A stretch of DNA of 64,000 nucleotides, taken from assembly GCA_904066235.2 (NCBI GenBank), contig CAJFCV020000004.1:496001-560000 (forward strand), read 5' to 3'. The notes beneath the pieces were generated by a model, which saw only the letters and a program-made list of their open reading frames with translations, was not told the DNA's origin and did not search any database. Of the stretch, positions 29,191-61,300 are shown piece by piece. Source of the stretch: Bursaphelenchus xylophilus. Taxonomy: Eukaryota; Nematoda; Chromadorea; Rhabditida; Aphelenchoididae. The position numbers and the translations under genes were made by a program. Each line of letters begins with the position of its first letter. Within the stretch, counting starts at the first letter, position 1.

Positions 29191-30753
29191 ATGCAAACAA
29201 TTTTCACCACCAGCGAATCGGAGCGCCCGCCACGACGTCAGCGCCGTTTCCGCCGCAAACGCCACTCTCCCATCATCCGCGACGGGATCGCGAGCTCCAG
29301 CTCGCAGATGGACTCCGACGCCGCCCTGCCCCGCGTGCCGATCGGCTACGAGAACGCGCTTCTGAAGCACACGCTGGCCTTGCTGACGAACGGTCTTGTG
29401 CCGCCGGGCGCGATGTTGCTGCCGCAAGCTCCGATGAACAAAATGAATTGGATGCCGGCGCAGATGGGCAACGAGAATATGGCACCGGGCCCATCGGAGG
29501 GCCCGAACATGAGGCCGGGACCATCAGGGTTCGTTCCGAGGCCTAATGGAAATCAAAGAAGGGCGGAGAGGCGGAGAAATGATGAAGAAGATAGCAACTA
29601 CTTCGACTCGGACAACTTGAATTCAGCGGACGAGCGAGATCTGGTAAGTGGAATTTTGTTTGTAAAGTGTTTATTGGTACTAGTCGCAGAGAATTTCTCG
29701 CGGCCGTCGCGCTCCGAAAAGTTGATTTGTCGCTGCGAAACACGGGAATCGCGCGCGACAATAAGGCAAAACAACAAAATTGCACTGTGCAAATGCACTT
29801 TTCGGGTTCATGCACAGTGCAGAGTCGCCGAAAATTCCCAGGACTTTTTTCCGCGACTAGTATTTTCACAAAGTTCATGGACATTTGTTGCGGTACGCAC
29901 CGTGCACAGAAACTCCCCATTTTTTGCACCGTGCGTTGGCGACAAGCGTGGGAAAAAGTTCAAGGTGCACTGTGCAAACGGCTTTTTGGTTTTCGCACTG
30001 TGCGGTATGAAAAGGAATAATGCACCGTGCGTTGGCGACAAGCATGGAAAAAGTTCAAAAATGCACTGTGCGTTGGCGACAAGCGTGGAAAAAAGTTCAA
30101 AAATGCACTGTGCGTTGGCGAAAAGCGTGGGAAAAAACTTCAAGGTGCACTGTGCAAACGGCTTTTTTGAAATTTGCACTGTGCGGTATGAAAAGGAAAA
30201 ATGCACTGCGCGTTGGCGAGAAGCGTAGGAAAAAGTTCAAAATGCACTGTGCGTTGGCGAGAAGCGTGGGAAAAAGTTCAAAATGCACTGTGCAAACGGC
30301 TTTTTTGAAATTTGCACTGTGCGGTATGAAAAGGAAAATTGCACCGTGCGTTGGCGACAAGCGTGGGAAAAAGTTCAATATGCACTGTGCGAACGCGAAA
30401 AAAATGTCCATGAACTTTATGAAAATAAATATTATTAAGACGATTATTTCACAACAAATATAACGTGTTTCCAGGCCGAAGAAGAAGAACGGAGAGCCCA
30501 AATACATCAGCAAATCCCTGCAATGGAAGCCGGCCCGAGCCAGGTTGAGTCTTCTACCGAAAATGACTCAAATGACGGTAGCAATGACTTCAACTCCGAC
30601 GAACTGAATTCGAATGACGAACGGGACCTGGTAAGGAGAATTTCAAAATTTTTCAAAAATTTAAAAGAAATCTTCACAGTAAATATAACCATTTTTCAGA
30701 TGGAAGAAGCACAACGAAGAGCCCAGATTCATAAGCAATGTGCCCAGCGATAG
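29191..30753 (+). CDS. Unrecognised disordered protein with duplicated exon unit (220 aa)
   Basis: Exons are 29191-29643, 30475-30630 and 30700-30753 (663 bp, frame continuous). An acceptor (TCGGTTTCAG) ends at 29180, ten bases before the ATG, suggesting trans-splicing. The N-terminus is Arg-rich (RPPRRQRRFRRKRHSP) and could act as a nuclear signal. The middle is Pro/Met/Gly-rich (NMAPGPSEGPNMRPGPSG). The end of exon 1 (FDSDNLNSADERDL) plus the start of exon 2 (AEEEERRAQIHQQ) is repeated as the end of exon 2 (FNSDELNSNDERDL) plus exon 3 (MEEAQRRAQIHKQ). This points to duplication of an exon-intron unit. No family was recognised and no function is proposed. Intron 1 holds a GCAC-box array. Confidence 0.72.
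29780..30405. repeat. GCAC-N-GTGC box cluster in intron 1
   Basis: About twenty 9-bp palindromes of the form GCACTGTGC, GCACAGTGC or GCACCGTGC occur here. From 29920 they sit in a degenerate tandem unit with the spacers GTTGGCGACAAGCGTGGGAA and CGGCTTTTTTGAAATT. The same unit recurs in the intron of the GILT gene (41240-41470). Confidence 0.9.
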
Positions 30754-31121
30754 ATGAAGCCATGTATTCCACGATTTCTTAAATTATTCCTATTTATTTT
30801 TTAACTCTAAAGCCATATCTTTACAATTGATGCCATGTCTTTCACGATATATTTGTGCCTTACTTGTTTTACCTCGAAACGGTGTTATATAGATCTCTAA
30901 CCTCATTTCTTTCACTCAAATTACGGTGTACTATACAGAACTCACTCGGTAACTACTTGCAATATCATTATTTCCCGGTCTCAAGAAAAAATGTGATTTC
31001 CTCAGGAACAAAAACAAATCCTCACGAATAAATATAATAATATGAATTTCGAATGCTCAACGTTTTTAAGATGGTTTATAACACGACAACAATATATAAA
31101 AAGATAACAAAACGAAGAACT
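30754..31121. other. Convergent 3' intergenic region
   Basis: It lies between the stop of the unknown gene (+) and the stop of the RACK1 gene (-). It is AT-rich. AATAAA-type sequence occurs near 31027 on the plus strand. No other feature was seen. Confidence 0.5.
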
Positions 31122-32384
31122 TTAAATTCCATCTTCCTTGATCCAGTCGGCGACTCCCCAGATTCTGATGGTGTTGTCGGAGTAGCCGGCGAAGAGGGTG
31201 TTTCCGTCCTGCGACCAGGCGAGCGATGTGCATTGAGGGGCGGCGCTTCCGGAGACGTCCAATTTGAGTTCGTCGAGGGTGGAACGGTGCTCCAAGTCCC
31301 AGATTCGGATGGTGGAGCCGACGGCGGCACAGAGCCAGTATCTGTTGGGGGAGAAGGTGAGGGCGTTGATGGTGTCTTGGGCGTCCAACTGGTACAAGTG
31401 CTTGTTCTCGGTGAGGTCCCACAAGTTGGCGACGCCGTCCTTTCCGCCGGACGCGCACAGGGAACCGTCGGGAGAGACGGTGGTGGCGTTGATGAACCCG
31501 GTGTGGCCAATGTGGTTGGTCTTCAGACGGCAGTTGGACAGGTTCCACACCTTCACAACCTTATCCCAACCGGCCGACACGATGGACGGGCTTGGGGAGG
31601 TGGAGGCGAAACGCACAGACGACACCCAGTGGCTGTGGCCATCGTCCTTCTCGGAGAGGGTGAGCTTGCACTGGGCGAGGGTGTTCCACAGACGGATGGT
31701 GCGGTCACGGCCTCCGGAAACGATCTGACGGTTATCGGCGGAAAAAGCGACGGAGAGGACGTCCTTGGTGTGGGCAATGAACTGACGGGAAGTCTTTCCG
31801 CTGAAAAATACTCAACAGAATCCATTTCAGCCAAAACTTCGCCAAAAATCAGATAATTTAGACCTTACACTACCCTAAACTCAAAGAAATCTCAAACAAA
31901 AAACTTACGTGTTCAAATCCCAAAGACGGAGAGTTCTGTCCCATGATCCGGTAAGGGCAAAGTGTCCATCGTGGGAGAGGGCAACATCGGAAACAAAGTG
32001 ACCGTGACCGAGGAGAGATTTCAGAGGACGGCCTCCGGTGATCTCATCTCCAAAGGAATGAAGGTCCCAAACGAGCACGGACTTGTCTGAAAAGAAAGGA
32101 ATTAGATTCCAGCATGTCCGTAAAGACAAATCTCGGCTAATATTCGACGAAATTTTTCTACATCATGGTGAATATCAAAAATATGAATTTGGGCCATTCA
32201 TTAACTCCAAATCGTTCTTATCCTAAAACCCAACAAAAAATCGCAAAAACATACCACGGGAAGATGAAATAAGGGTGTTGGCGTTGGATGGGGAGGTGGC
32301 CAATTGAGTGATGGCACCGTTGTGACCTTCCAACTTTCCGCGTAGGCTCAGGGCGGCTTTTTTGGTGATTGTTTCTCCTTCCAT
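31122..32384 (-). CDS. rack-1: RACK1, ribosome-associated WD40 scaffold (328 aa)
   Basis: Exons on the minus strand are 32384-32255, 32086-31909 and 31800-31122 (987 bp). It is a seven-bladed WD40 protein of the usual RACK1 length. Diagnostic segments are [80 protein letters not shown] and [24 protein letters not shown]1 binds the head of the 40S ribosomal subunit and docks kinases such as PKC. Exon 3 is notably GC-rich, as expected for a highly expressed gene. An acceptor (TGCTTTTAG) lies about 25 bases upstream of the ATG (32409), a likely trans-splice site. Confidence is very high. Confidence 0.98.
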
Positions 32385-32408
32385 ATTGGTTGAGACTATG
32401 GGTAAACC

Positions 32409-33076
32409 CTAAAAGCAGAAACTCTGTAAAAATTACATCAAAAATCGATTCAATATGTAAAAATAGCACGGACGTAGGATGGAGAAGATAAAATAAATGT
32501 AAAATCCATGAAAACTTATCAAAAACTTGGATAAACTTGACTAAAATACGCAAAAATCCCAAGAAAAAATTTTTCGAGGAACGACAAAAAACCTTTTTGC
32601 CTAAAATAAAGCGTTTCGAGACTCAGCACAGGCAAACTGATCTTGGCGTTCTGTTGCAAGTAGTTTTTTCTCGAGAATTTTTAGCGGAGGACGGCAATTG
32701 ACGTTGCAACTTACTACAACGCGTTGTAGTAAGTCGAATATAGGCCTAGAACATCATAAAATGTGGAATTCGACTGGTTTTGACATCTTTTTTGACAAGT
32801 GCAATATCTAGATGTTGTTCATGGTGAAATTTACTGATTTTCTTCCTAATTTCCTCAGAAAATGCGGTGACTTCTTTGATTTCATGATAGTACTGTCCAT
32901 TCTATGTTGAAACATATCGAGAACATGCTTCTTTTCACAAAAATATCCTAAAAATTCATCAAAAATCCTCAAAACACCTGTTTGGCGAACAACAATATCA
33001 AAATTACACAAACATAACTTTATCCTAGTCCTTTAGACAATATAAAGAGATATAGAGAGGTCTAATGAGTGCCATT
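32409..33076. other. Intergenic region between DLD 3' end and RACK1
   Basis: AT-rich, unique-looking sequence with no supported gene. It contains the upstream region of RACK1 (adjacent to the trans-splice acceptor) and the 3' flank of the dehydrogenase gene. A short inverted motif, CAACGCGTTGTAGTAAG with TTACTACAACG, lies at about 32710-32735. Confidence 0.5.
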
Positions 33077-35500
<2,424 letters not shown>

Positions 35501-35941
35501 CTTCGACTGCAAGGACCGACAGGAATACCCACTGAAAAGACAAGATTGTAAAAAAACAAACAAATTTCGCGAATTCTCAACTCGTTTAAAAAGACAAAGG
35601 ACGTCATTGTAAAACTATCAGTGATAACAACAGTCAATCACACGATTCCTAGAAAGAGATACTATAATTTAGGCTAAAGAAATACCAGAAACTATATAAT
35701 ATAATTTCAAAATACTACACGATCGGAGATCACAACCACGACGGTCCAATCAATCTAGACACGGGCATTCCCGTTCGTCTTCAAGCATGGCAAGATCGAG
35801 AAAAAACAAAAAGGTCCTCATAATCAATGCGCAATTTTTGGCACTTCGCACCGATAGATCTGTGGCATTTCGTCGTATCCCGAAAAATATTTTCTATAAA
35901 ATCTCTCGGAAGTTTGTTCTTGTTGATCTGTGGCTCCTACC
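35501..35941. promoter_or_regulatory. Divergent promoter region, DLD and RPC8
   Basis: These 441 bases separate the starts of two divergently transcribed housekeeping genes and probably contain both promoters. The sequence is AT-rich at the DLD side and more mixed at 35720-35810. No specific factor site was assigned. Confidence 0.5.
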
Positions 35942-36929
35942 ATGTTTGTTTTATCCAAATTCAAGTACACAGCAAAGATATTGCCGCTGCATTTGGGCGA
36001 GGACTTTTTAAGCACGTTGATCAAACGGATTGATGCCGATTTCGCAAATTATGTAAGTGGCGTTCTTTATTTTTGTGTTCAATATTTAGATAATGACTTG
36101 TTCTTTCTATTGCGAACGAAAAATGTTTCCAACAAAGCTGTTTTGACGCTTTTTTGTCGACATTATTCATAGCACCTATCTAAAATAATGTTTTAACCCC
36201 TTTCTCTCAGGTAATCATCGATGTTGGACTATGCTTGAGTTTCTACGACTTCCAAAGCATCGGAGCGTCTTATCTGATGGCCGGCGATGCCTCAAGCTAT
36301 ACTCCAGTTGAATTCCGGTACTTGGTTTTCCAGCCCTTCCGAGGTGAAGTGATCCAAGCAACAATTTCGTCATGCACAACAGATGGTGTGAAACTTACAA
36401 TGGACTTCTTCAGTGATATATTTGTGACTCCAGACAACCTTCCGGAGGTCTCTAAATTGTAAGTTGGTTCGATTTTTATAATCTTGTTTTAGTGATGAGA
36501 AGGAGCAAGTTTGGATATGGGAATTCCAATCGGAGGAAGGAGGGGATCCCGTCAAATTCTACATGGAGCCGGGGAAGACTGTAAAGTATGTTTTTCATTA
36601 TATTTTTTTGAAATTTAGAGATGAATTTTGCAAAATACGACTGTTTTTTCTGAAACAGCTACTTTTTGGTGGATTTTTTGAATTTTTGCCAATTATGGAT
36701 AAATTATTGGCTGTAACTTTTCGAAAACGTAATTTTTTGTCAAAATCAACTGTGCGGTTGTAGATTCCGAGTCACAGACATCAAATATCGAAGTGTTCAG
36801 CCAGGAGCATCGTCCGAAGTCAAGGTGATGGAGATCACCGGAACAATGTCAGAACATGGTCTAGGCTGTGTGGACTGGTGGGCGCAGCCCGCAGAGCCCG
36901 AAGATGACGCCGAACCTGCCGAATCATAG
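35942..36929 (+). CDS. RNA polymerase III subunit RPC8 (POLR3H/Rpc25), 205 aa
   Basis: Exons are 35942-36052, 36211-36458, 36493-36585 and 36764-36929 (618 bp, frame continuous). The length is close to that of human POLR3H. The N-terminal Rpb7-type fold is MFVLSKFKYTAKILPLHLGE with VGLCLSFYDFQSIGASYLMA and GDASSYTPVEFRYLVFQPF. The S1/OB domain follows, with GEVIQATISSCTTDGVKLTM, FFSDIFVTPDNLP and EQVWIWEF. The C-terminal GTMSEHGLGCVDWW matches the family end (SEPGLGLLSWW), after which an acidic tail is added. With RPC9 it forms the stalk of Pol III, which helps initiation on tRNA and 5S genes. Introns 2 and 1 are 34 and 158 bp. Confidence 0.95.
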
Positions 36930-37474: not shown

Positions 37475-38730
37475 GACGTGCACTGTGCGAAAACAAAAGT
37501 TCACTTTGCACTGTGCAATTTCTCGCTTTTTGCACCGTGCAATAAGCTTTTTGGGTTGTCGCTCACACCTTGACTTTTTTTTTGCACCATGCAAGTCGCC
37601 AAAATAATTTTCGCGACATGCACTGTGCGAAAACAAAAGTTCACTTTGCACTGTGCAATCTACTAGTCGCGCCATAAAGTCCTGACACATTTTGCACCGT
37701 GCGAAAGTTCGGGGTTTGGACGTCGCGCCCCCAAATTCATTTTGCACCGTGCATTCTTCTTTCATTTCATCCGCACTGTGCATCTTTTCGCATTTGTCGC
37801 CGCGATTTCCCCTTTTTGCACTAGCGACTTGCAAAACCCGAACTTTCGCACTGTGCATTCTTCTTTCATTTCGCATTTGTCGCCGCAATTTCCCGTTTTT
37901 GCACTAGCGACATGCACTTTTGCGCGCGACGAACCCGAATTTGGGGGCGCGACGTCCAAACCCCGAACTTTCGCACGGTGCAAAATGTGTCAGGACTTTA
38001 TGTCGCGACTAGTATATATTGCTTTTCGCACCGTGCAATGAGCTTTCCGGGTTGTCGCTTGACTTTTTTTGCACAGTGCAAGTCACCGGAATGATTTTCG
38101 CGACATGCACGAAAACTTTGTGCGAAAACAAAATTTCACTTTGCACTGTGCAATCTATTGCTTTTCGCACCGTGCAATGAGCTTTCTGGGTTGTCGCTTG
38201 ACTTTTTTTGCACAGTGCAAGTCACCGGATTGATTTTCGCGACATGCACTGTGCGAAAACAAAAGTTTCCTCTGCACAGTGCAATTTGTTTTCCTCTGCA
38301 CCGTGCAATCCGTTCGCAAGTCGCCAGAATGATTTTCGCGACATGCACTGTGCGAAAACAAAATTTCACTATGCACTGTGCAATCTCTTGCGTTTCGCAC
38401 CGTGCAATAAGCTTTTTGGGTTGTCGCTCGCACCTTGACTTTTTCTGCACAGTGCAAGTCGCTGGAGTGCACTGTGCGAAAACAAAATTTCACTTTGCAC
38501 TGTGCAATTTCTTGCTTTTTGCACCGTGCAATAAGTTTTCTGGGCTGTCGCTTGACTTTTTTTGCACAGTGCAAGTCGCTGGAGAGATTGATTTTCGCGA
38601 CATGCACTGTGCGAAAACAAAATTTCACTTTGCACTGTGCAATTTTCGGCTATTTGCACCGTGCAACAAGCCTTTTGGGTTGTCGCCTCTGAGTTTTTTT
38701 GCACGGTGCGTGTCGCAAAAATGCCCGTCA
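37475..38730. repeat. GCAC-N-GTGC satellite, roughly 100-140-bp units
   Basis: A degenerate tandem repeat. Each unit holds four boxes in a fixed order: TGCACTGTGCG followed by AAAACAAAA, TGCACTGTGCA, TGCACCGTGCA and TGCACAGTGCA. The spacers include GGGTTGTCGCT and GATTTTCGCGACA. 'GCGAAAACAAAA' marks the unit at about 37487, 37628, 38110, 38252, 38351, 38475 and 38608. The stretch 37680-38010 has a local inverted duplication. Open frames (HCAKTK.., FRTVHV..) are repeat artefacts. Confidence 0.93.
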
Positions 38731-38789
38731 AAAAATTTTCGCCCACGCTTTGCAAAAAAAAAAAATTAAAATTTTGTGTTGCCAAAAAA

Positions 38790-40845
38790 ACTTTTTTTTT
38801 CGAAAATTTGCACAGTGCAAAAAAAGTTACCCACTGCACTGTGCAAAATTTCACTTTGCACTGTGCGAAATTTTCATCTCCTTGCACAGTGCAAAAAATT
38901 CGAATTTTTTTGGGAACAAAAAGTAAGATTTTTTGAGTCAAAAAAATTCCAAAATTTTGTACAGTGCAAATTTTTTTCTAGATTACTGTAGCAAAAAATT
39001 TTTATAAGTCAAAAAAAAGTTTCAATAATTTTTGCACAGTGCAAAAAATGTTGCCCATTGCACTGTGCAGCGCCATTTTTGCCTTATTTTTGGCGTTGCA
39101 CAGTGCGAAATTTTGATCTCTTCGCACTGTGCGAAAAATTCGAAATTTTCTGAAAATATAAAATAAGCTTTTTTTGAGAAAATTTGAGTGTCTCGCCTCC
39201 AGGGGATTTCTTTTTCGTTGCGCTTCAGTCGTTTTTAAAACTTTTTCTGCAACATTTTTACTGTCAAAACAACAATTTTTCTTCCCCTATCTTTACTGCG
39301 TGGCCTGCTAGAAAACAATTTTTATAGTAATAATAAAAATGCTGCAACAATCTCCCACCGAAATGCAGAGAACTCTTTCGTACTCTTTTTATAGTGTAAA
39401 AGATCTTTTACACTTTACAAAAAGCCAGTAATCTTTAAACTGATGTCCATTTCCGCTCCACCTCGAACGGAAATGTAATAAAAAAATCCCAGCTTTCGTT
39501 GGGGCAAGGTCATTCGTTGTAAAGCTGGAGGCCGTTACAATTACTTTTCACTCGTCCATTTTATTTGATCCTTCCGTTTTTAAAAGATTCCTCAAGGGCG
39601 AATGAGACAATTCGGCGGACGTTGCAGACGTTTTTTGGGCTGCGGAGTTGGAGTGTTTGAAAAAAATTTGGGAACTTCGGAAATTTTGGAGCTAAAATTT
39701 TATGTGTTACTGTAACGAGAAATTTTTTAGTCAACAAAAGTTTTTCAATTTTTTCGCACAGTGCAAAAAATGTGACCCACTGCACTGTGCAGCGCCATTT
39801 TTGCTCTATTTTTGGCTCTGCACTGTGCAAAATTTTAATCTCCTTGCACAGTGCGAAAAAATAAAAATTTTCTGAGAGTAGAAAACAAGATTTTTTGAGT
39901 CCAAAAGAATTCCAAAATTTGGCACAGTGCAAATTTTTTTTCTAGATTACTGTAGCAAAAAATTTTTTAAAGTCAAAAAAAGTTTCACTAATTTTTGCAC
40001 AGTGCAAAAAAATTTTCTCACTGCACTGTGCAGCGCCATTTTTGCTCTATTTTTGGCTTTGCACAGTGCAAAATTTTCACCTCCTTGCACCGTGCGAAAA
40101 ATTCGAATTTTTTTGGGAACAAAAAGTAAGATTTTTGAGTCAAAAAAATTCCAAAATTTGGCACAGTGCAAATTTTTTTTCTAGATTACTGTAGCAAAAA
40201 TTTTTTAAAGTCGAAAAAAATTTCCAAATTTTTGCACAGTGCAAAAAATGTTGCTCACTGCACTGTGCAGCGCCATTTTTGTTCTATTTTTGGCTCTGCA
40301 CGGTGCAAAATTTTGTCTTCATTGCACTGTGCGAAAAAAATCAAAATTTTCTGAGAGTAGCAAATAAGATTTTTTGAGTCCAAAAAAATTCCAAAATTTT
40401 GCACAGTGCAAATTTTTTCTAGATTACTGTAGCAAAAAAATTTTTTAAAGTCAAAAAAAAATTTCCAAATTTTTACACAGTGCAAAGAAATTTTCTCACT
40501 GCACTGTGCAGCGCCATTTTTGCCTTATTTTTGGCTTTGCACTGTGCAAAATTTTGTCCTCATTGCACTGTGCAAAAAAATCAAAATTTTCTGAGAGTAG
40601 AAAACAAGATTTTTTGAGTCCAAAAGAATTCCAAAATTTGGCACAGTGCAAATTTTTTCTTGATTACTGTATCGAAAAACTTTTTTGAAGTCGAAAAAAA
40701 ATTTCCAAATTTTTGCACAGTGCAAAAAATGTTGCTTACTGCACTGTGCAGCGCCATTTTTGCCTTATTTTTGGCTTTGCACAGTGCGAAATTTTTATCT
40801 GTTTGCACCGTGCGAAAAACTGAGGTGCCAATGACGTTTTTCAAA
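38790..40845. repeat. GCAC-N-GTGC satellite, regular 240-bp units
   Basis: The marker CAGCGCCATTTTTG occurs at about 39067, 39791, 40031, 40270, 40511 and 40751, giving spacings of 239-241 bp for the last five. Each unit has about five boxes (TGGCACAGTGCAAA, TTTGCACAGTGCAAA, CTGCACTGTGCAGCG, TTTGCACAGTGC, TTGCACNGTGC) and the segment TCTAGATTACTGTAGCAAAA. An unrelated segment interrupts the array at about 39180-39690. The array ends just before the start of the GILT gene. Confidence 0.95.
39180..39690. other. Non-satellite insert within the 240-bp array
   Basis: About 500 bp without GCAC boxes separates the first unit from the rest of the array. It contains short inverted motifs (GTGTAAAAGATCTTTTACAC near 39396) but no gene or recognised repeat family. 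It may be an insertion or an older flank. Confidence 0.6.
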
Positions 40846-40866
40846 AAAAATTTTTTCAGGTGAAAA

Positions 40867-42784
40867 ATGAAGTTGCTTGTTCTCATCACCGTTTTTTGTT
40901 TCTACATATCCACTACCACTTCCGTCTTGCCGGACTGCGGCCGGATCCCGCCAAATTTCTGGTGTAAAAACATGCAGATTGCCACACATTGCGGGGTGGC
41001 GGCGGCTTGTCAACGATACAATCAGCTGAGTGCGAATCGAAAAGTTCACATTCAAATCATCATGGAGTCGTTGTGTCCGTTCTGTCAACGGTTTATTGTC
41101 GACAAATTTTACCACGATGTGTACTTGAAGTTCCGAGGATATGTTGATGTGGAGTTGGTCCCTTACGGAAATGCCGAGCGAAATGTGAGTGGAAAATGGG
41201 CGTTTATAGTGTTTTCAGAAAGTGCGTAGACTTTTTTCGGCCTCTTTTCCGCACAGTGCAAACGACTTTTTTGTGGTTTGCACGGTGCGAAAGAGAAAAA
41301 AATGCACCGTGCACAAAAACTCTCCATTTTTTTGCACTGTGCGTTGGCGACAAGCGTGGGAAAAAGTTCAAGATGCACTGTGCAAACGAACTTTGTTTGC
41401 ACGGTGCGAAAGAGAAAAAAAATGCACTGTGCGCTGGCGACAAGCGTGGGAAAAAGTTCAAATTGCACTTTTTTTTCTCAGTGCAAAATGTTTTCGAAAA
41501 GGATCGCGTCGCGCGAGGAACAGAGAACTTGCACGGTGCGGTGCGAAAAAAGGCCGATTGCCCTGTGCACATTTTTGAGCAAATCGCAGCGACGCAGTTG
41601 AGAAAAGCTTACGTCGCAGCGATATTTCAAACGCACAGTGCAACACCAAAAAAAGATGAGTGCACGGTGCAAAAAATCGTTGGATTTTTGTGCACAGTGC
41701 GGACCGCGACGACACAAAATGAAATTGCACAGTGCAAAATGTTTCGAAAAGGATGAATTCCATCGATTGCGACCCAAAATGGGGTAAAGCGACCCCGGGG
41801 TGAAAATTCCTTGACTTTTTTCGGGAAAAACTTGCCTTAGGGGTTTTCGAGGGTGCTGATTTCGAAAATGATGTTCATTTTTTCTGAAACTTACTAGTTT
41901 TCCTTAAGCAGTAGTGTTAAAAAGCAATTTTTTGAAATTTTTCCAAAAATACTCGATTTAGGGGTTTTCGAGGGTGCTGATTTCGAATATCGGGTTTATT
42001 TTTTCTGAAGATTACTAGTTTTCCTTAAGCAGTAGTGTTAAAAAGTAATTTTTTGAAATTTTTTCAAAAATACTGCTTAAGGAAAACTAGTAAGTTTCAG
42101 AAAAAATGAGCATTGTTTTCGAAATCAGCACCCTCGAAAACCCCTAAAGCAAGTTTTTCCCGAAAAAAATCAAAGAATTTTCACCCTGGGGTCGCTTTAC
42201 CCCATTTTGGGTCGCAATCGATGCGGGGTCGCAATCGAAGGTTTCCAAAAGGATCGCGTCGCTCAGCATGCACTGTGCGGTGCGACAAAAGGCCGAAAAA
42301 GGTCTACGCTCTTTCTGGAACGACCAGTACGAATAAAAGCCCTCTAAAACCCCAATTCCAGGGCATGTCGATCAGCTGTCAGCACGGTGAGAAGGAGTGC
42401 GAGATCAACACCTTCTTCTCCTGCGCGCAACAGCACGTGAATCCCCCGTTCGACTTTGTCTATTGCATCGAACGAGAGCTGAAGAATTTTAGCACTTTCG
42501 AAGTGGCGAAGACCCGTTGCTATCGGGAGCGGAATGTGCCGGTCGCCACACAGAGCCGTCTGCAATCCTGCACGTACGGCAACGAGGGCCGACAACTGCA
42601 GCTGCAGGCGGCGCGCATCACCGAAGCCGAGTTCCCGGAGCTGCATTTGACCGTCCCCTACACCATTATTAATAATGTGAGCCTGGTCAGCGCGCAGCAT
42701 ATGCGCTCGAATTTGGGCCTCATGATTTGCGACTGGTATGTGGGCAGGAATTTTGTGCCGCCACCCTGCAAGGAGTTGAGTTAA
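40867..42784 (+). CDS. GILT-type lysosomal thiol reductase (246 aa)
   Basis: Two exons, 40867-41184 and 42362-42784 (741 bp). It has a signal peptide (MKLLVLITVFCFYISTTTS). The active-site CxxC is ESLCPFC (Cys70/Cys73) in the strand IQIIMESLCPFCQRFI. The GILT signature CQHGEKECEINTFFSC begins at Cys112. The family (gamma-interferon-inducible lysosomal thiol reductase) reduces disulfides at acidic pH in lysosomes or after secretion; nematodes have several members. An acceptor (TTTTTTCAG) at 40859 lies 7 bases before the ATG, so a trans-spliced leader is likely. A polyadenylation signal AATAAA lies at 42812. The 1.2-kb intron holds GCAC boxes and a palindromic element. Confidence 0.95.
41240..41730. 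repeat. GCAC-N-GTGC box cluster in the GILT intron
   Basis: About seventeen boxes occur, partly in the unit with spacer GTTGGCGACAAGCGTGGGAA that also occurs at 29930-30380. The remainder have unrelated spacers. Two further box-like sites lie near 42270 and two at 43053-43092 beyond the gene. Confidence 0.9.
41761..42223. repeat. Palindromic element in the GILT intron
   Basis: The ends are inverted repeats of ATCGATTGCGACCCAAAATG continuing through GGGTAAAGCGACCCC. Arms extend about 130 bp. The left part holds a tandem duplication of GGGGTTTTCGAGGGTGCTGA with a TTCCTTAAGCAGTAGTG segment. No coding capacity was seen. Confidence 0.85.
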
Positions 42785-43159
42785 TGTACAGAAATACGAT
42801 GATTTTGAGTGAATAAAGTGCCAAAGATATCTGTCATTATTTTGAATCAATGTAGAGGCTATTCAAAGCTTCAAAATTCAAGTTCAACAAAAGCAAAAAA
42901 ATCAAAAAAAAATCGAAATTTAATTTTTGCATTAAAAAATCGCTGACTTTAAACCAGCAATTAGATGTATTAGAGCCAATTGGTAGTTTAGCAACACCTT
43001 TTTCATTCAATAGACTACAATTTTGACACTTTTTCAGCAAAAATTTAGATCACTGCACGGTGCAAGAACCCAAATTTCGATTGCACAGTGCAAAAAAATT
43101 TATTAATAAAAGTCGGCCAAATTTCCCAAAAATTATGTTCAAAGTTGTTTACCTCCTCT
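42785..43159. other. 3' flank of GILT
   Basis: AT-rich. It contains the AATAAA signal and two GCAC boxes (43053, 43083). No gene was seen. Confidence 0.5.
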
Positions 43160-50219: not shown

Positions 50220-50270
50220 GTCCCTCCGCCGTCCAAAAAAGGTTGTTGCGCGCTCGAATCGCGCCGCTGA

Positions 50271-53200
50271 ATGGACCATCAAGACTCCATCATCCACCAT
50301 CATCCCGCAGGTCTTCATTCGGAGCCCCAACACCGGCTGCCATGGCGCAATTTCATCAAACTCATCCTGATTGGCTGCGCCATGACCACCATCACCAACT
50401 TCCCGTCCGCCTTCACGCACACCTCGGTGAACACGGCCGTCAAGGAGCTGAAGGGCTACCTGAACGAGAGCTTCGATGAGCGCGGCTGGGAGCTGAACCG
50501 CGAGCAGCAGAGCGTCGTGCACGGCGTCGTGAACTCGTGCTGGTTCGCCGGCCAGGTCATCGGCTCCTTCTTCTCGCCGCTGGTCACGGACAAGTACGGC
50601 CGCAAACGTAAGTTTTGAGGGGTTTTTTGATTTTTTTATTTTGAAAAAAAAAATTTTTGACAAGAAAAGTACTTCTGTGGGTATGGAGGTACAGGTCGAG
50701 ACATATATCAAAAAATTTGCAAAATTTTTCTGATTCAGAATATGTAAAAGTTAGCTGCCTAATTTTGGTTTGTAAGGGTGAAAAAATCCTCTGAACTTTT
50801 CTCGCAACACCACGCAAATGCCTTTTGGAACAAGTTTTTACCAAATCAAAAGGTTTGTTTTGAGCTAAGGTAAACCCTGGCATCTTGACAAGCCTTGAAA
50901 TAGCAAATTTGATTCATACTGCACCTTAATTTGTAGTTCCAATGTAAAAAAGGCGCATTTTCATGGTGTTGCGAGAAAAGTTCTGAGGATTTTTTCACCC
51001 TTACAAACCAAAATTAGGCAGCTAACCTTTGCATGTTCTGAATCAGAAAAATTTTGCAATTTTTGATGCAATCTGCACGGTGCGGAAGGTCAAAAAAGTT
51101 GAAAGGGCTTTTCGAAGAGAAAGGCCACCCGAGTCCATTTAGTCGAGTGGTTAGCGAGCTCAACTTTGAATCGAAAAGTCGGAAGTTCGATCCCCATCGG
51201 GAATATTTGCCGTTTTTATTCTAAAAAAGCATTATTTTTAATATGAATAGAAAATTTTATTGTAAAAAACATTTACTCTTTCTTGATTTTATTATTTTTA
51301 ATTAGACATTTGAAGGAATTTTTGGATAAAATCACTTTTTCCTCAAAAATTCGACATCTTTTGTCGAAAAATTAATGTAGAAAATGATATGAACCGTTTT
51401 CAAAGGGCTAATCCTCTGATTTTAGCAGCTTACATCTTGTCCACGGCGATGATGACGCTGGCGTGCGCGCTGCAAGCGATCAGCACCATGTTTCCGTACC
51501 CGGAATTCCTGGTGGTGGGCAGGATTTTGGCCTCAATGTTCTCTCCAATGAGCGATGCTGCCTTTGTCCTTTACATGCAGGTAGGCGAATTATTCTCTAT
51601 TTTGAACATTACACTAGAAATTTTTTGAATTTTTCGTTTTGAAAATTTTTTATATTACTTTATATTACACTTGATGTGAAGGTCAAGTATAAGGTAATAT
51701 TGATGTCGAAACCCCTTGTTTCGACATATTTTGCCAAGTAATGCCTATATATTGCCAATTATTTGCAGGAAATCTCGCCCACCGGCATGCGCGGCACGAT
51801 GAGCTCGTTCTTCGCCTCCGGCTACGCGGTTATGGCCCTTCTCGGTGCGGTGTTGGGCATGGAATCGGTGCTCGGCCACTCGTTGCCCCTCTTGTTCAGC
51901 GTCCCGGTGGCGCCCGGTATCATTTCCCTAGTCTTCCTCGCCCTGGTACCCGAAACTCCCAAATTTTTACAACTCGCCGGTGCCAAAAAGTCGCATGCCC
52001 TGCGGCGAGCTCTCGAATTTTATCAGGTAAGGAGTGGAGAGGGATTTTTGAGGAAATTGAAAGAATTTGAGGGGATTTGGAAGTGATTTTGAGGGGTTTC
52101 GAGGAGAGCTGGACTTTTTTAGAGATTTTGGACCAAAAATTACCTTATTTTAGGTTCAAAAAAATCTTTGAGAAAAAATAGGTCCAGATGGACCAAAAGA
52201 CCAAGTGGACTCTAATTTGGCTTGTTTCCCCTCCGGGCATACCGATTTTTTCGACGAAATTTCGATTTTTTTTCCATTTTTCTGGTAATTTTTGCTTTTG
52301 AAATTAGCCATTTTGAAGTGGTCCCCTCTTGCCATAGCCTGAAAATCAGATTTTTTGCAAGATTACTCCCCATGGTTTCAGGGCCCAGCCATGGACACCT
52401 CCTTCTACAAGCCGCTGGCGGACAACGGGCACTCGAAACAGGAGGGCCTCATGACCGAGCGCTCGTTTTGGGACCTGTGGAAACGCCGCGAACTGCGACG
52501 TGCCATCTTCCTCACGTTCGCAGTCTTTGCCCTAGCTCTCCCCTTTTACCCAATCCTCCAAAGCTCCACGCATTTCATGAAGGAGGTGGGAATTAAGGCG
52601 GACATTGCCGAGTTCTCCTCCACCGGCCTCATGATCATGTTTGTGATCGCGAGTGCGATCGGAACCGCCCTCATGTCGCATGTTTCCCGACGCCGATTGA
52701 TCCTCTGGAGCGGGTTCTTCTCGATTCTGTCCATGCTGACCTTTGTGATTGCCGCCAGGTTCAGTCAGACCGGCCTGGTCATGAAGTACATTGCCATGAT
52801 GGGATTTTATGCTTATACTCTGTGTTATGGGTAAGTTGGAGGGGATTTTGGAGTGGAAATGGGGCAAGAGGAAGTCATAGAGGCTTGGAGTGGGTATCTG
52901 GAATTAAAAAGAGGATTTTTAGATGTTTTTGAGACTAATCTTGATTTGGTCATTGATGCATAAAACAATATAAAATTAGTATTTGTTTTTGATGAAAATA
53001 GTATCATTAGTAAGCTTAGAGTGTGATTAGTTTTTTCTGACAATGTGAAATTGATTTTGAGAAGATTTGGGAGAGAAATTTTATATTGTTTTAGGTGGTC
53101 TTCAAAAAACGTGAAGGAAAGTCGGAGGCTATAACTTCCGGCGGAGGCGGCACTGAGACTTCGTATTTGGAATATGTATTTTTAAGCGGCATTAATTTTT

Positions 53201-54187
53201 GTCTATGAAATGACAAGATTTTAAAGTGCAAACTGAGGTCGCCGCGATCTTCTGAAGTAGGGGCATTTCTATCGGTTGAAAATGAGTTTGCACTTTGAAA
53301 TCTTGTTATTTCGTAGGCAAAAATTGATTAATTAACGTCGCTTAAAAATACATATTCCAAGTACGAAGTCTCAGCGCCGCCTCCGCCGGAAGTTATAGCC
53401 TCCGACTTTCCTTCATGTTTTTTGAAGACCACCTAAAACAATATAAAATTTGTCCCCCAAATCTTCTCAAAATCAATTTCACATTGTTAGAAATAACTAA
53501 TCACACTCTAAACTTACTAACTACTATTTTCATCAAAAACGAACACTAATTTTATATTGTTTTACCCATCAATGACCAAATCAAGATTAGTCTCAAAAAC
53601 ATCCAAAAATCCTCTTTTTAGTTCCAGATACCCACTCCAAGCCTCTATCACTTCCTCTTGCCTCATTTCCAATCCAAAAATCATGTACTAGGTGGTCTAC
53701 TACAATATAAAAAATTATTAAAATCATGGTTATTTTTGACTAAATTGTCTCGAATTTCAGCCTCGGCTTCGGCACGGTCTCCTACTTTATTGGCACGGAG
53801 TTCTGCGACATTGAGTACCGGTCGACGGTGTTCTCGGTCTGCTATTCCCTGAACAATATTTTCATTGTCCTCACGAATATGCAGGCGATTTGGGCCTTCA
53901 AAAAGTTCGGACCGATGGCCTTCCTCCCCCTGTTTGGAATCCCATGTGTCACTGCCCTCATCTACTTGTATTTCCGGCTCCCGGAGACCCGGAACCGAGA
54001 CATTGAGGACATTGTGGAGGAGCTCAGATCTAACAGATGTGGCCTCCGTTCGGCTGCATTGCTGAGCGCTGATCACTCCAAAGTGGCGCCAGTTTTCAGC
54101 CAGGTGGAAGAGCTGGATGTGACCGCCATCCAGGCACAGGATACCCCCAAGAAATTGAACACTTCCGAGGAGAGTCTGGCCTCCTGA
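50271..54187 (+). CDS. SLC2/GLUT-like major facilitator transporter (541 aa)
   Basis: Exons are 50271-50607, 51426-51580, 51769-52026, 52382-52830 and 53761-54187 (1626 bp, frame continuous). An acceptor (CCCGACTTCAG) ends at 50219, giving a 51-base leader after likely trans-splicing. Sugar-porter signatures are DKYGRKR after TM2, the TM4-5 loop [17 protein letters not shown] (a variant of PESPRFL), SRRRLIL after TM8, and [16 protein letters not shown] (a variant of PETKG) at the end of TM12. The substrate is probably a hexose or related solute at the plasma membrane; the family is clear, the substrate is not. The N-terminal tail is His-rich ([12 protein letters not shown]). Intron 1 contains a family J element and intron 4 a recent long palindrome. 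Part of exon 4 is duplicated, inverted, at 43728-43883. Confidence 0.93.
50657..51066. repeat. Palindromic element family J, copy 2
   Basis: It lies in intron 1 of the sugar transporter. The left end is GGAGGTACAGGTCGAGACAT. Internal inverted segments CTGATTCAGAATATGTAAAA / TGCATGTTCTGAATCAGAAA and TTTGGTTTGTAAGGGTGAAA / TTTTCACCCTTACAAACC are present. The right terminus is cut off near 51066, where a GCACGGTGC box follows. Confidence 0.82.
52847..53690. repeat. Long palindrome in sugar-transporter intron 4
   Basis: Arms of about 390 bp (52847-53240 and 53300-53690) are inverted copies with few differences. Both contain GGCAAGAGGAAGT, AGAGGCTTGGAGTGGGTATC, TTTTATATTGTTTTAGGTGG and the family G core GGCTATAACTTCCGGCGGAG. 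The left arm begins about 16 bases after the exon 4 donor, so the right arm is an inverted copy of the intron's own 5' part. The high identity suggests a recent origin. Confidence 0.92.
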
Positions 54188-55342
54188 TGGAGAAGATAAA
54201 ATTGGAGGATTGGCAGGGAATTTGAAGGAAATTCGAAAGGAGTTTGACATTGTAACACTCTATTTGGCTGAAGTATGCGGTGGAATCGCTAAATTTTGGA
54301 AATTTTCGGAAAATTTTTGGTTATATTACTTTAGGTGGTTTTGGAATTTTTTGATATTTTTGAAGCGAATTGCTGGGAAAAAGAGATAAAATCGAATGTT
54401 TTGAGTAGTATTTTAGAATTTAGAATAGAAATTATCAAGGTTTGAAAAAATTTGAAAAAAAAAATTATATTACTTTAGGTGATTTTGAAAATTTTTGGTA
54501 TTTTTGAAGCGAATTGCTGGAAAAAAGAGATAAAATAGAATGTTTTGAGTAGTTTTTTAGAATTTAGAATAGAAATTATCAAGTTTTGAAAAAATTTGAA
54601 GAAAAAATTATATTACTTTAGGTTATTTTTGGATATTTTCCCCAAAATTTTGATGAAAATGGATGAATTTAGTGGATTTCACCTCATATCTCAGCTAAAG
54701 AAGGGATTTAGAATTGGTTCTTAGTTTTATAATTACCAAATTTTTGAGATTTTTTAACAATTTTTGAAATTTTTCCCAAATTTTTTAACATTCGACCATG
54801 TTTTCTCAAATTTTAGAGTATGTTGTATAGTTTTGCATCAAAATTGACCCTTTATTTGTTGACTCCCGACTTATTTCGAGCCTAAATTGTTAACTTTTTC
54901 ACCTTTTTTCTCACATTTTGACATAGCTTCAAAAAGCGGAATTTTTTTACAATTTTTTATCAATTTTTACAATTTTTTATAACTTTTTACTGACCTGTAA
55001 CTTCAAAAGTTACTCAACCTGTAAATTTCCCAACTGTTCGAGTTTGTTGTTGACGATTGTTCGTTGAATTCGGATATTAATCTTACATTATACGCAATAA
55101 ACGGGTTACTGAATTAAAATTTGATATTTTTTGATTTTTTTTTATTTTTACAATGTAAAATTTGGTATTTTACATTAAAAAAAAATTTTTTTTCTAAAAT
55201 TGAAAAAAATATAATAATTTATAAAAAAAAAAACTAAGTGAATTTGAAATTTTTTTGAAGAGATCAAGCTATTTTAAGCCTGTAAGTGAGGTAAAAAATT
55301 GAGAACAATATAAATTAAAAAAATAAAATTCGAAAAATCCCG
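54188..55342. other. 3' intergenic region with a 125-bp tandem duplication
   Basis: It lies between convergent gene ends. At 54290-54625 a segment containing GAAGCGAATTGCTGG, TTTTGAGTAG and ATTATATTACTTTAGGT is repeated about two and a half times with a period near 125 bp. The rest is strongly AT-rich and shows no gene. Confidence 0.7.
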
Positions 55343-58300
55343 TTACGAATTGTCTTTTGAGGTCTTTGGCGCTTCGATTTGCTGTCTTTTGGCGATTTGT
55401 TGCTTGTAATATTCTTGGAGCAGGTCGGTCAAGTACTGGAGACGTTTTTTTACAACTTCAATGTCCATTTCTGAAAGAAAAAATTTGAAAAAAAAAATTC
55501 GAAAATCAAAAAATTTTTTAAAATCAAAAAAAAAAATCCGAAAATACAAAGAAAAAATCGAAAAAATTCAAAAATTATTTTTTTTTATTTTAAAAAATAT
55601 ATCGAAAAATCCAAAAAAATAAAAAAATCCGAAATTATTTTTTTTAATTTTCAAAAAGTATCGAAAAAATTCAAAAAAATAAAAAATAAATCGGAAATTG
55701 ACGCGAAAAAATCGAAAAAATTTTAAAAAAAGTTTTTTTAATTTTCAAAAAAATTCAAAAATTATTTTTTTAATCTTTAAAAATATATCGAAAATCAAAA
55801 AAATAAAATAAAAAAATCCGTCATTTTTTTAAAAATTTTCAAAAAAAAAATCCAAAAATTCCGCGAAAAAATCGAAAAATTAAAACATTTTTTTTTCAAA
55901 AATCAAAAAAAAATTTTTTCGAAATTTCGCCCCAGGCTTAATATACGGAAAATTCCGCGAAAAAATCGAAAAATTCAAAAAAAAATTTTTATTTTCAAAA
56001 AAAAATACGAAAAATCCGCAAAAAAATAAAAAAAAATCCGATTTTTTTTAATTTTCAAAAAAAAAAATTTTTTTCGAAATTTCGCCCCAGGCTCTAATAT
56101 ATACATAATCAGGTGCTGCCTACCTTTATGAGTCCGCATGAACCGCTCCACGGCCTTTTCTTTGTTGGCTTTTGAGGCATTTAGAGCCTCCAACAGCTCC
56201 TTGTCATCCTCTTTTTTGAACTGTCGGAACTTGTCGAGGAGGTGTTTGTAGCGCTTCAGAATGTTGTGTTCGTCTTTGTGGACGCGTACGTTGATCCAGG
56301 ATTGGTGGTCGCCCTCGCTCTTCGCGAAGCAGCCGTTCTGGATGCGGATTTTGGGGCGGAATTCGGGGTCCGGCCGCAGGCCCGACAGGTCCACCAACTC
56401 CGGCCGGATATTTTGAGGGCGTGGCGAGAGGGGGTTGGTGGCGGCCAGAAATACTCGGACCGGCACCACTTCCGCTTTGTGGTAGGGGATTCTGGAAGGG
56501 CAAGATTAGAGGGAACACCGATTTTTTTGGGAAAAATTTTGAATTTTTAAAAAGGAAAAATTTGAAAAAAAATCAAAATTCTTTTAAAAAATCGGTAAGT
56601 TAAAATAAAAAAGCTTGCGACATATAATTTTAAGGCTATTTCTGACTTTTAAATCAACGATTTTTTTTATTTTTGCGATAAATTTTTTAATATTTTTTTT
56701 TTGAAAAAATTAAAAAATGCTTCAAAAAATCGGAAAATTAAGACAAAAAAAATGCGAAATATTATTTTAAAGGGTATTTCTGACTTTTAAATCAACGATT
56801 TTTTTGATTTTTTAGAAAAATTTAAAAAAAAATTTTTTTAATTTTTTTGAAAAAAAATCAAAATTCCGTCAAAAAATCGTTAAATTCAGGCAAAAAAAAG
56901 CCCGAACTATTTTTTTCAGCCCACAGATTTTCTATGGACATTATTTTGGACACTAAAATTTCGGTTTTCAGCAACAAACATAACTTTCAAAAAAATTTTT
57001 CTTTTACTTTTTTTTGGTTCAAAAAATTTTTTAAACTTCAAAACTCACTTTTCTCGATACAATTCGCCGGGAAAAAATTGTTTTATCTTGGCCCAGAGGG
57101 GTTCATGAAGTCCGGCGAGTAATTTTCGGATCTCCACTCGTAATGAATCCGGGTTTTTGTAGTCTAAAAAAGTGCACTGTGATTACTAAACAGTATAAAA
57201 ATTTTAAAAAATAAGAAAAAAATTTTCAAAAAATCCAATTTTTTGGGCAAAAATTTTCAAAAAATCTCAAAAATTTTTAAAAAATTTTCGGTTTCATAAG
57301 TAAAATTCTAATGTCAAATGACTTCGTATGTTCTTCAAACATCATAAGTTTCAATTTCAATTCGTTTATGGGCCAAAATAAGACCAAAATTTAACAAAAC
57401 TTCAAAAAATCTCAAAAATTTTTCAAAAATTTTTGATCTCATGGATAATATTCTTATCTCAAATCACATGAAATCACCTTTATACATCCAAAAATTTCCT
57501 CTAACCTCCTAAACTGTCCAAAAAAGCCAAAAAACCTCAAAAAATTTCGAAAATTTCAAAAAAAAATCCAAAAAATTTTAAAATTTTTGATGTCAAGTGT
57601 AATATATCGCCACAAAACCGTCTCAAATCCTCTCCAATCTCCTTAAAATTCCACTTACGTTCCGCAATCACCGTTCGCACGCGTCTGATCATGATGGTGT
57701 TCTGTTGGCCGGTGAAATAGATCTAAAATTTGAATATGCAAATTTGCCGGCTTGAAGCTCACATTGATGTGTAAAAACAGGTCGAGGGCATCTCGACACT
57801 CTCTTCGTTCCACGTCCAAAATTTGAGACTTTTTGAGGTGGGCTTCGTCGAGCATTGAGCTGATCCAGTAGACCAGGTCCAGCTTCTCCGGGAACATGTT
57901 TTTCAATTTTTCGAATTTCTGAAAATCCAAAAATATTTTTTATATTTTAATTAAAGTCTAATCTACATTTTAAAAAGTTTTTTTTCATAAAAAATCAAAA
58001 AATTTTTTTTTTCAAATTTTCAAAAAAAATTTTTTTTTTCAAATTTTCAAAAAAATTTTTTTTTTTAATTATCAAAAAAAAAATTTTTCAAATTTTCAAA
58101 AAAATTTTTTTTTTATTTTTTTTTGATTTTCACCTCTCCAGCATTGATATTCTCCTTCATGACGGCGATAAATTCCTTTGTTCTTCCTCTATGCATGAAC
58201 AGCTTCCTTCTCGCCACTCTTTTCACGCATTCCAACGCCAATCGGCACCATGTTGTGACGATTTTCGGGTCGTTGAAGCCTCTCATGCAGCGCTCGATTT

Positions 58301-61300
58301 GCTCGGGACGCCGGGGTTTCTTGGACCACACGCCAAAGGGCTTGGCTATAAACAATTTTATTAAAAAAATTATTAAAAAATAAAAATTTTTTTTTGCAAC
58401 TCCGTGTAACAAACCCTCTCTATAACAAATTTTTTTTTCTCTTACATTCCTTTACGCAAAATTCCAACAAAAAATCGACTAAAAAATACGATTTTCCGAC
58501 GCTTTTTCGCCAATTTTGATTTTCGCACAGTGCGATCAAAAAAATCGCACAGTGCACTCAAAAAATTGCACAGTGCAGTCAAAAAAATACCGCACAGTGC
58601 ACTCAAAAAATCGCACAGTGCAGTCGAAAAAACCGCACAGTGCAGTCAAAAAAAAGCTGCACAGTGCATCCAAAAAAATATCGCACAGTGCAGTCAAAAA
58701 AACATCGCACAGTGCGATCAAAAAAATTGCACAGTGCAGTTAAAAAAAGATCGCACAGTGCAATCCAAAAAAATCGCACAGTGCAGTCAAAAAAAAGCTG
58801 CACAGTGCAGTCAAAAAATACCGCACAGTGCAGACGAAAAAAGATCGCACGGTGCCGTCAAAAAAAATCGCACAGTGCAGCCAAAAAAATATCGCACAGT
58901 GCAGTCGAAAAAGATCGCACAGTGCAGTCAAAAAATTGCACAGCGCAGTCAAAAAAATCGCACAGTGCAGTCAAAAAAACCGCACAGTGCAGTCAAAAAA
59001 AGATCGCACAGTGCAGCTAGAAAAAGATTGCACAGTGCAATCAAAAAAAAAAAGATCGCACAGTGCAGTCAAAAAATTGCACAGCGCAGTCAAAAAAATC
59101 GCACAGTGCAGTCAAAAAAAGATCGCACAGTGCAGTCAAAAAAACCGCACAGTGCAGTCAAAAAAATCGCACAGTGCAGTCAAAAAAATCGCACAGTGCA
59201 AATCGCACAGTGCAGTCAAAAAAAGATCGCACAGTGCAGTCAAAAAAACCGCACAGTGCAGTCAAAAAAATCGCACAGTGCAGTCGAAAAAAATCGCACA
59301 GTGCAGTCAACAAAAAAAATCGCAGAGTGCAGTCAAAAAAAAAATTTTTTTTAATTCTCAAATTTTTTTAAAATCCTCTAAACCTTTAAACTCACCATAA
59401 AACACATTATTATCCACTTGACTTCCACTATTTTGTCCGTTTTCCCCGATTTTCTGGCCAATTTTTGGGAGGGGTTTCGAGAAATCCTTGGAAGTTGAAG
59501 GAATTTGCTCCTTGTCGCTCTCCAGCCTGAGTTCAATCTCCGCGGCCATCCTCGACGTCTCACTATGCATGGTGGCGGACATGTTGGACTCTTCTCTATG
59601 GCACAAAACTTGATCTTCTTCTTGGTCATTTCCTGTTGGTCTAGTGCAAGATAAATTCGAAAATTCTTGTTCCGAATCGTCCAAAATCTCGCCCTCTTCC
59701 GGACTATCCGATTCTCTATTATTTGTGCTTCGATTTGACACCAAATTCGTTGAGATTTCCGCGGAATTTTTAGGGATTTTTGCGACCTTCTCCATGGGGT
59801 CTTCAAATAGGCGGCGTTTGACATTTTTGGCCGGACTACTGTAGCTAAAGGCTTTTACTGCCTCGGGGCGTTTTCTTATGATCGTTGGGAGCTTTGAGCT
59901 TCTTCTGGGACCATCTTCATTTCCATCGGCCGGGATCTCATCTGTTCGGCCGCCTTTTTCCAACGGCCCTTTTCCGGTCATTCTTTTGACCGGAGGGCTT
60001 GATGAAACCTTCTTTGATGTGCTAGCATCCTCTACTGACTTTTTCAAGCTACTCGGACTATTAAAACATCCAGAATTTTCCAAAACTTCATCATGATCAT
60101 CATGGGTAATATCCGAGATGCCTTCTTCTCTAAAATCTCCACTTCCCTCGCCTTCCAAGACGTTTTCCTTTCTGTTTTGAGGATTTTCACACTCTGCATT
60201 ACCTCTCCCTGCATCTTGGACCTTCTCCACGAGCTGAGACACTTTTTTGCCCTGAGGCGTTTTTCCGTCATCCCTCTTTTCCTGCAGGTCAATCGCATGT
60301 TTCGGGCGTTTCGTAGTGCTCTGAGGGTCTTGATCGTTCCATGTGACATGTCTTTTCGGTCCTTTTGAGGGAAAATTATCTTCTCCTTCATCTTCTGGTA
60401 TCACAGTTTCATCAATACCCACAACATCCACAACTTCTTCTTGCTGCTTCTCTGTAATGCCTATTATTTCTTCCTCATCGCCATTTCTCGGTGTTTCATG
60501 CTCAATTTGACCAACAATTTGGGCCGCTTTACTTGTACTTGGCAGATCACTGTTCCTTCTGCTAATAACTTGTTGATTTGATCTCATTGGAGTCAAATCA
60601 ATTGTTTGTAGCGCCTGGACGGCCGCTGGGACACTCTGAGCCTCATTTTGAGATATAATCTGCAAAAATTTTATGATACCTTTTGATACTTTTCAAAAGT
60701 ATCATGGATACTTTTGGATACTTTTTGACAAAAAACCTTCTGTAAGGTATACTGAGCTCAAAAAAACTTACAATTCCCAAATTTTCCTGCAGAATGACTG
60801 GAATTTGGGTCAATTGAAAGGTGCCGTCGGGCATTTGGACCAGTACACTTTGAGTGGTCATTTGCGGGATTGCGATGACATTTGGAGGGCTTGTGATAGG
60901 AGTGGTAAAGTTGATAGGTGTGGCTGTGTTGTCCACCAAAACAATTGGGTTTCCACTGCTTTGAGGGGTATTTCCGATCGATATTATTTTAGGCCCACCA
61001 ATGGGGGGTGCTCCAATTTCTCGGGTTATACCCAAATTCCCTGCGGCAGTTTGGTCCGAATCTTGTTCCAGCACAAAAATTTTCCCTCCATTCTCTCGAT
61101 TCCGACCACTTCCCGCCAGATCTTCGGCCATTTTTTGGATCTCCGGACTCCCCAAACATATTGCACTTGAAATTGTTGGTGTTTTTTGTTGTTCCCTTGT
61201 TCCTTCGGCTGTCTTTCGGTATTTCTGCATGAGTTTCAGCCAATGTGGGACTGTGATGTTGTCCCAGCACACGGGTGGGTCTCTTTTCGGGGTGCCGTGC

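Follow-up and report, generated by a model that had tools for sequence, protein, structure and literature searches.

We analysed the region C4:496001-560000 of the 78.25-Mb genome of Bursaphelenchus xylophilus Ka4C1 (the window, that is, the whole stretch of 64,000 nucleotides; positions given without a chromosome refer to it), in which introns and intergenic DNA carry arrays of a 9-bp palindrome, GCAC-N-GTGC (GCACNGTGC, hereafter the box). A RACK1 exon in the window shares 96% identity with Bursaphelenchus okinawaensis. The window contains 126 exact boxes, compared with a mean of 0.38 and a maximum of 3 in 100 shuffles, and 25 further boxes with one mismatch, part of which lie beyond the arrays; the "well over 150" copies reported by a first-pass annotation, made by a model from the letters of the stretch, is therefore too high for exact boxes.

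Array A (29782-30390, 16 boxes) is located in an intron, with a donor-like GTAAGT at 29644 and an acceptor-like TTTCCAG ending at 30474 (splice sites and intron limits were judged by eye). Fourteen of its boxes are enclosed by terminal inverted repeats (TIRs) of the TIR1 family, a left one of 32 nt on the forward strand (29861-29892) and its 91% complementary partner on the reverse strand (30396-30427), and the first enclosed box starts 5 bp past the left TIR. Upstream of the GILT gene, a scan for exact boxes identified array B1 (37480-38709, 30 boxes), including an inverted repeat (37658-38017) with 81-nt arms of 98% complementarity, boxes in the arms and a TACTAGTC end. Array B2 (38810-39132) holds 8 boxes, and array B3 (39756-40813, 23 boxes) has a tandem unit of about 240 bp. 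The GILT assignment made earlier is confirmed by a match to PF03227 (E 4.5e-9) in a forward-strand exon (42362-42781). An intron of this gene holds array C (41251-41735, 12 boxes), which is flanked by inverted repeats of 37 nt and 86% complementarity (41213-41249, forward; 42284-42320, reverse), with a single box (42270-42278) just inside the right repeat; in this element, as in that of array A, boxes start within 5 bp of the inner ends. A boxless inverted repeat with 163-nt arms (94%) is nested in the GILT-intron element at 41761-42223. The exact-box scan also gave two boxes at 43055-43091 (array D) and an isolated box at 51075-51083. Array E (58525-59304, 33 boxes) has a unit of 22-24 bp, oligo-A spacers and a nearly uniform A centre, from which it looks young, and its flanks show a weak A/T-rich inverted repeat only; both B3 and E are plain tandem arrays. 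The earlier statement that spacers differ completely between arrays holds in part only, since array A and the GILT-intron array have one spacer family in common, with at least 161 matches genome-wide. The gon-4-like assignment of a further gene is unconfirmed, with no Pfam match in the two exon open reading frames (ORFs) tested.

Counted over this one genome, the box occurs 41,616 times and the box read backwards, used as control pattern, 178 times; this 234-fold difference is far from the random expectation that had been named beforehand as grounds for abandoning a function of the box. The full 11-letter motif, YGCACNGTGCR, is present in 39,685 copies (control 44), and we estimate about 16,000 box clusters. 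Boxes with one mismatch number 18,654 against a control background of 8,060, so that the excess over background is about 10,600 for one-mismatch and about 41,400 for exact boxes, a ratio of 0.26. The sequence read directly comprises less than 0.5% of the genome: fixed positions, sampled box surroundings, box-dense places and one TIR1 pair. In a genome-wide sample of 149 boxes, drawn through three sparse patterns whose matches were listed completely (128 sites after neighbours within 5 kb were collapsed), the centre letter was T in 58, A in 42, G in 28 and C in 21, confirming the free centre base that had been proposed. The letter next to the box was A or G in 121 of the 128 collapsed sites; the purine preference was weaker at the position beyond and little was left of it further out, while a weak A/T asymmetry reached further from the box. 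Literature searches, with most subscription papers outside their reach, found no printed description of this box.

Constraint was measured in two data sets. First, 44 tandem arrays from the window and from 110 loci (L001-L110, part of them chosen as box-dense; viral loci left out) were aligned unit by unit, and differences were counted from a unit consensus that had to include a box. Boxes differed at 79 of 3163 positions (2.5%), spacers at 1005 of 8085 (12.4%; 18.8% at G/C columns), the first flanking letter at 79 of 757 (10.4%) and the centre at 93 of 393 (23.7%). The box was less divergent than the spacer in all 44 arrays and the centre more divergent than the spacer in 32, with bootstrap ratios of 0.20 (0.14-0.28) for box to spacer and 1.9 (1.4-2.4) for centre to spacer; in array B3 the corresponding differences were 1/192 for the box, 6/24 for the centre and 55/846 for the spacer. 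Second, dispersed copies with a spacer divergence of up to 15% were compared (112 box pairs, 64 distinct query boxes, 32 locus pairs; the query copy had to hold an exact box and the pairs are not independent), bins above 25% being left out, since in these the alignments are held in place by the boxes. Mismatches amounted to 28.6% at the centre (32/112), to 0, 2.7, 0 and 1.3% at distances 1 to 4 (9/896 differences), to 6.2% at distance 5 and to about 10% at distances 6-15, which gives rate ratios of 0.10 (0.04-0.17) for box to flank and 2.8 (1.9-3.8, 95% interval) for centre to flank. Equal conservation of boxes and spacers, the other outcome that the first-pass annotation had regarded as fatal, was thus not seen, and its view that ordinary drift does not account for the conserved core is upheld by both data sets.

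Neutral birth and decay of boxes would be expected to leave at least as many one-off as exact copies, and the observed ratio of 0.26, taken from genome counts free of the exact-query condition, disfavours it. A single recent burst could yield the same ratio at about 3% divergence but does not fit, because aligned spacers diverge more than that; a wave of recent box insertions into unrelated DNA is excluded where aligned units or dispersed copies share their spacers yet differ at the centre. Selection on binding, acting through resident copies or through the choice of the copies that are mobilised, fits the pattern of constraint. Since the box is palindromic, its letters might instead be preserved by mutation itself, through template switching at imperfect palindromes, with no binding protein involved. 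We regard this as highly improbable: symmetric double mutants showed no clear excess (6 of 58 double mutants with one change per arm; 12 of 144 possible types are symmetric), and GCAC is by far the most enriched palindromic arm (359 observed, 5.1 expected), the next GC-rich arm, TCGC, reaching 8 against 1.1. These two counts led us to reject palindrome correction as the source of the constraint, and for the same reasons what is preserved is not palindromic symmetry as such.

The spacing of boxes was studied in a random sample of 60 box loci (L051-L110) with 359 boxes and 299 intervals, of which 4 were shorter than 20 bp, 220 measured 20-44 bp, 43 measured 45-100 bp and 32 exceeded 100 bp. Genome-wide, distances of 9-19 bp separate 110 neighbour pairs and distances of 20-26 bp separate 5,155, which amounts to a 74-fold rise in pairs per distance. 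When similar spacers on either strand were removed, 146 distinct ones remained, of which 81 gave intervals of 27-34 bp, and the typical pitch of about 30 bp is found also between unrelated spacers. One-off boxes stand mostly at array distance as well, 40 of 54 lying 20-49 bp from an exact box. No distinct peak near 10.5 bp, which would indicate helical phasing, was detected in the 60 random loci. The spacing as a whole resembles what a row of dimers, each occupying about 20 bp, would be expected to produce. Single boxes made up 14 of the 60 loci, and most of them are not plainly decayed arrays, because 12 of the 14 had no one-off box within 120 bp.

The carriers of the boxes are diverse. Inverted-repeat elements carry some of them: two loci (L061 and L055) have a plan similar to that of the array A and array C elements, a third (L045) is a foldback whose arms consist of about 316 nt of boxes and spacers with 81% identity, and two more (L006 and L020) contain box-bearing inverted repeats. 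TIR1 was found near boxes in 7 of the 60 random loci, where 0.75 hits were expected; the MITE-like end TIR2 (from miniature inverted-repeat transposable element; TCAGTCTGTCGGGAAAATAATGAGCACTCTGTCG, 287 exact copies) was considered as a carrier and set aside, since 9 of 60 loci against 5.7 expected hits is not clearly box-specific. Sequence matching another sampled locus contained 204 of the 359 sampled boxes, and 41 of the 60 loci had such a partner. A companion motif, GCGACAA/TTGTCGC, is about 12-fold enriched near boxes, with 60 occurrences against 4.8 expected, and 27 of the 60 loci have it; in 18 cases the box centre lies at one fixed distance from it, the distance seen in a shared composite repeat, and the other distances are scattered. 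The one TIR1 foldback read, L231:1-3251 (C1:2959150-2962400), is 3.2 kb long, and its arms include stretches of 119 and 214 nt at 97-99% identity. The genome has three matches to MULE domains (C5:370408, C6:5798413 and C4:828505). Box-targeted duplication, the alternative offered in the first-pass annotation, is partly right, as tandem duplication and inverted-repeat elements both carry boxes.

Boxes are present on all six chromosomes (C1-C6) and enriched on both arms, the 149 sampled boxes falling into pooled chromosome deciles as 26, 21, 12, 6, 5, 2, 10, 14, 28 and 25. The middle third received 17 of the 128 collapsed sites, where one third would be expected (p = 3e-7), and part of this central count may be unrelated sequence, because 4 of the 17 sites have T as the next letter. 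Positions of TIR1 (238 exact copies) and TIR2 were listed in full for C1 and C2, and on these two chromosomes 0 of 96 and 0 of 98 copies, respectively, fall in the middle third; boxes thus reach deeper into chromosome centres than the copies of either end. Because the TIR1 and TIR2 ends are even more strictly limited to the arms of C1 and C2, arm enrichment alone says little about function. None of the TIR2 copies lies in the first 2.0 Mb of C2. The distribution also bears on the suggestion of the first-pass annotation that the box marks meiotic pairing centres of the HIM-8/ZIM type. The sequence CAGTGCA, with which the HIM-8 motif ends according to that annotation (unconfirmed), does occur inside A-centred boxes followed by A. 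However, pairing centres of C. elegans are described, in the accessible part of the source, as using motifs of 12 bases that are concentrated towards a single end of every chromosome (PMC9071541), with different motifs for different chromosomes, whereas in B. xylophilus, a species outside Caenorhabditis, one and the same box occupies both arms of all six and the predicted clustering near one end is absent. We therefore discard this link as having next to no likelihood. A motif for programmed DNA elimination was likewise considered: the Oscheius-type palindromic elimination motif is, as far as the portion of the source at hand describes it, restricted to elimination sites at chromosome ends (PMC13370393), and the number of boxes and their spread along the chromosomes rule out such a role.

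Taken as a predicted site of a DNA-binding protein, without regard to the origin of that protein, the box is, in our estimation, very probably understood correctly. The reading of the site as symmetric, proposed in the first-pass annotation, gains indirect support from the dyad symmetry with a free centre, from the constraint on boxes but not on spacers, from the sharp lower limit on spacing and from the lack of comparable enrichment of any other palindromic arm. More specifically, we suggest, with a probability of about 0.5, that YGCACNGTGCR is the predicted site of a symmetric, probably homodimeric, sequence-specific DNA-binding protein that is probably encoded by a transposon, and that it was spread by selfish repeats. 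Each bound dimer would cover about 20 bp of DNA and set the lower limit on spacing, specificity would arise from the high local density of sites, and arrays would gain copies through tandem duplication and as passengers of mobile inverted-repeat elements (MITE-like or foldback). The protein might most likely be a transposase or an anti-silencing protein; copies with intact boxes would be those mobilised or kept active, so that spacers could drift freely and boxes could not, and plain tandem arrays and single boxes would represent amplified or isolated derivatives. With a transposon-encoded protein, both the spread of the boxes and their constraint would be accounted for, and the host need not select at some 40,000 sites.

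Precedents for a transposon-encoded protein of this kind may be seen in Arabidopsis and Drosophila, and Tm1 of Meloidogyne appears structurally similar. In the parts of the report on the anti-silencing system of VANDAL21 in Arabidopsis that were available, its protein VANC21 recognises a motif of nine bases that recurs in varying tandem arrays within its own transposon and derives its specificity from motif density (PMC5735166). This short motif is dense in non-coding DNA of the mobile element, including introns of element genes, and lies in tandem repeats that differ between copies (PMC5735166), an arrangement that part of the boxes may share. In that system, so far as described there, the protein is known and the dense arrays are confined to one transposon family, whereas the box of B. 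xylophilus occurs in many unrelated carriers and is truly palindromic around a free centre letter. Galileo has long, repetitive TIRs within which its transposase finds multiple sites (PMC3688188, seen in part), and Galileo and Tm1 (PMC3169594, likewise) resemble the elements described here in having inverted-repeat arms with a variable number of short repeats; Motif C of Tm1, however, is given in that text as a 13-15 bp unit unlike the box (PMC3169594), and most of our sampled boxes lie outside recognised TIR elements. The Helitron-related AGAANNTTCT satellites of Caenorhabditis share with the box arrays the construction of tandem repeats on a short palindrome with free centre letters, and are shared across species (PMC4595182); their sequence is different, and in the accessible text the repeats are approximately multiples of the decamer itself, without unrelated spacers (PMC4595182).

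Several results weigh against the transposon-encoded reading. A recognised TIR or composite family lay within 350 bp in only 11 of the 60 random loci (64 of 358 boxes), and among the 36 loci with at least four boxes direct repeats (22) were more frequent than inverted box-bearing arms (13) or a box-enclosing inverted repeat (12); no clear TIR flanks arrays B2, B3, D and E of the window. The TIR1 foldback L231 encloses smaller inverted repeats, has only two exact boxes and contains no ORF longer than 138 codons from stop to stop, and neither a box-binding protein nor an autonomous element was found in the fraction of the genome that was read. The middle third of C1 and C2 holds 7 of 58 sampled boxes and none of the TIR1/TIR2 copies (p about 0.0008). 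Finally, several different TIR families share this one box, contrary to what a family-specific transposase would predict, and plain binding does not predict a centre that changes faster than the flanks.

The variety of carriers is more readily understood if the box is bound by a chromosome protein of the host (of the holocentromere, of arm heterochromatin or of attachment to the nuclear envelope), with host selection keeping boxes in whichever repeat carries them: the same box is found in plain tandem arrays, foldbacks and singles on all six chromosomes, and conserved boxes in satellites of Meloidogyne offer a parallel. These CENP-B-like and 19-bp centromeric boxes are, like ours, short motifs that stay constant in a nematode parasitic on plants while the tandem repeats around them diverge, as the present arrays confirm for B. 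xylophilus; in the material available on them, they measure 17 or 19 bp, belong to few satellite families and show a holocentric spread by fluorescence in situ hybridisation (compared here by length, number of families and distribution), whereas the box, as an 11-bp motif, has about 40,000 copies, enriched on arms and depleted at chromosome centres. This depletion is unlike an even holocentromere, host selection would be needed on some 40,000 sites, and the dispersed families and TIR elements suggest selfish spread; we therefore rate a host protein as possible and as the strongest of the alternatives, though clearly less probable than a transposon-encoded one.

The fast centre is the strangest result, and neither a transposon-encoded nor a host protein accounts for it. 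Damage, opening or cutting at the dyad could be responsible, or the spacers could be partly constrained too. An enzyme that cuts the centre, with repair leaving it variable and promoting tandem duplication at the box, would agree with a centre that changes at 2.8 times the flank rate beside nearly frozen neighbours and at 1.9 times the spacer rate in tandem arrays, and the 4-1-4 palindrome is itself like a cleavage site. Yet the spectrum of centre substitutions differs between the data sets (transitions 24/93 in tandem arrays, 17/32 in dispersed copies), and centre indels, expected after cleavage, amounted to one against 148 aligned centres, so that we consider a cleavage or recombination site unlikely. 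In a bolder variant, of similarly low probability, the box would be a self-propagating micro-element of 11 bp: an enzyme would cut or open the centre, and repair would both randomise it and seed new boxes about 30 bp apart. If this were true, a single protein would have placed about 40,000 sites in introns and in unrelated repeats on every chromosome arm.

Whichever protein is involved, conserved boxes in fast-evolving satellites are usually known from a handful of families, and here one box extends over the roughly 16,000 clusters, with the free centre and the free spacers as a built-in internal control. This system lets one ask which kind of protein, a selfish DNA-binding protein or a chromosome protein of the host, has moulded the repeats of a nematode genome, and what makes the centre evolve faster than its flanks. 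Ordinary gene introns such as that of GILT hold dense arrays of candidate protein sites, which could affect expression. At one sampled locus (L106:150-300), a box-filled intron comes directly after a short exon that starts like a signal peptide (by eye).

The window contains other tandem arrays at 27398-28176, 3700-3942 and 12354-12757; one has a 125-bp unit in 6.2 copies, and the units of the two others share GTGACATGTTATACGATGA. The starts of C2 and C3 have a string in common (L005:1-40, L008:1-30) that resembles the Oxford Nanopore ligation adapter and is presumably a residue in the assembly.

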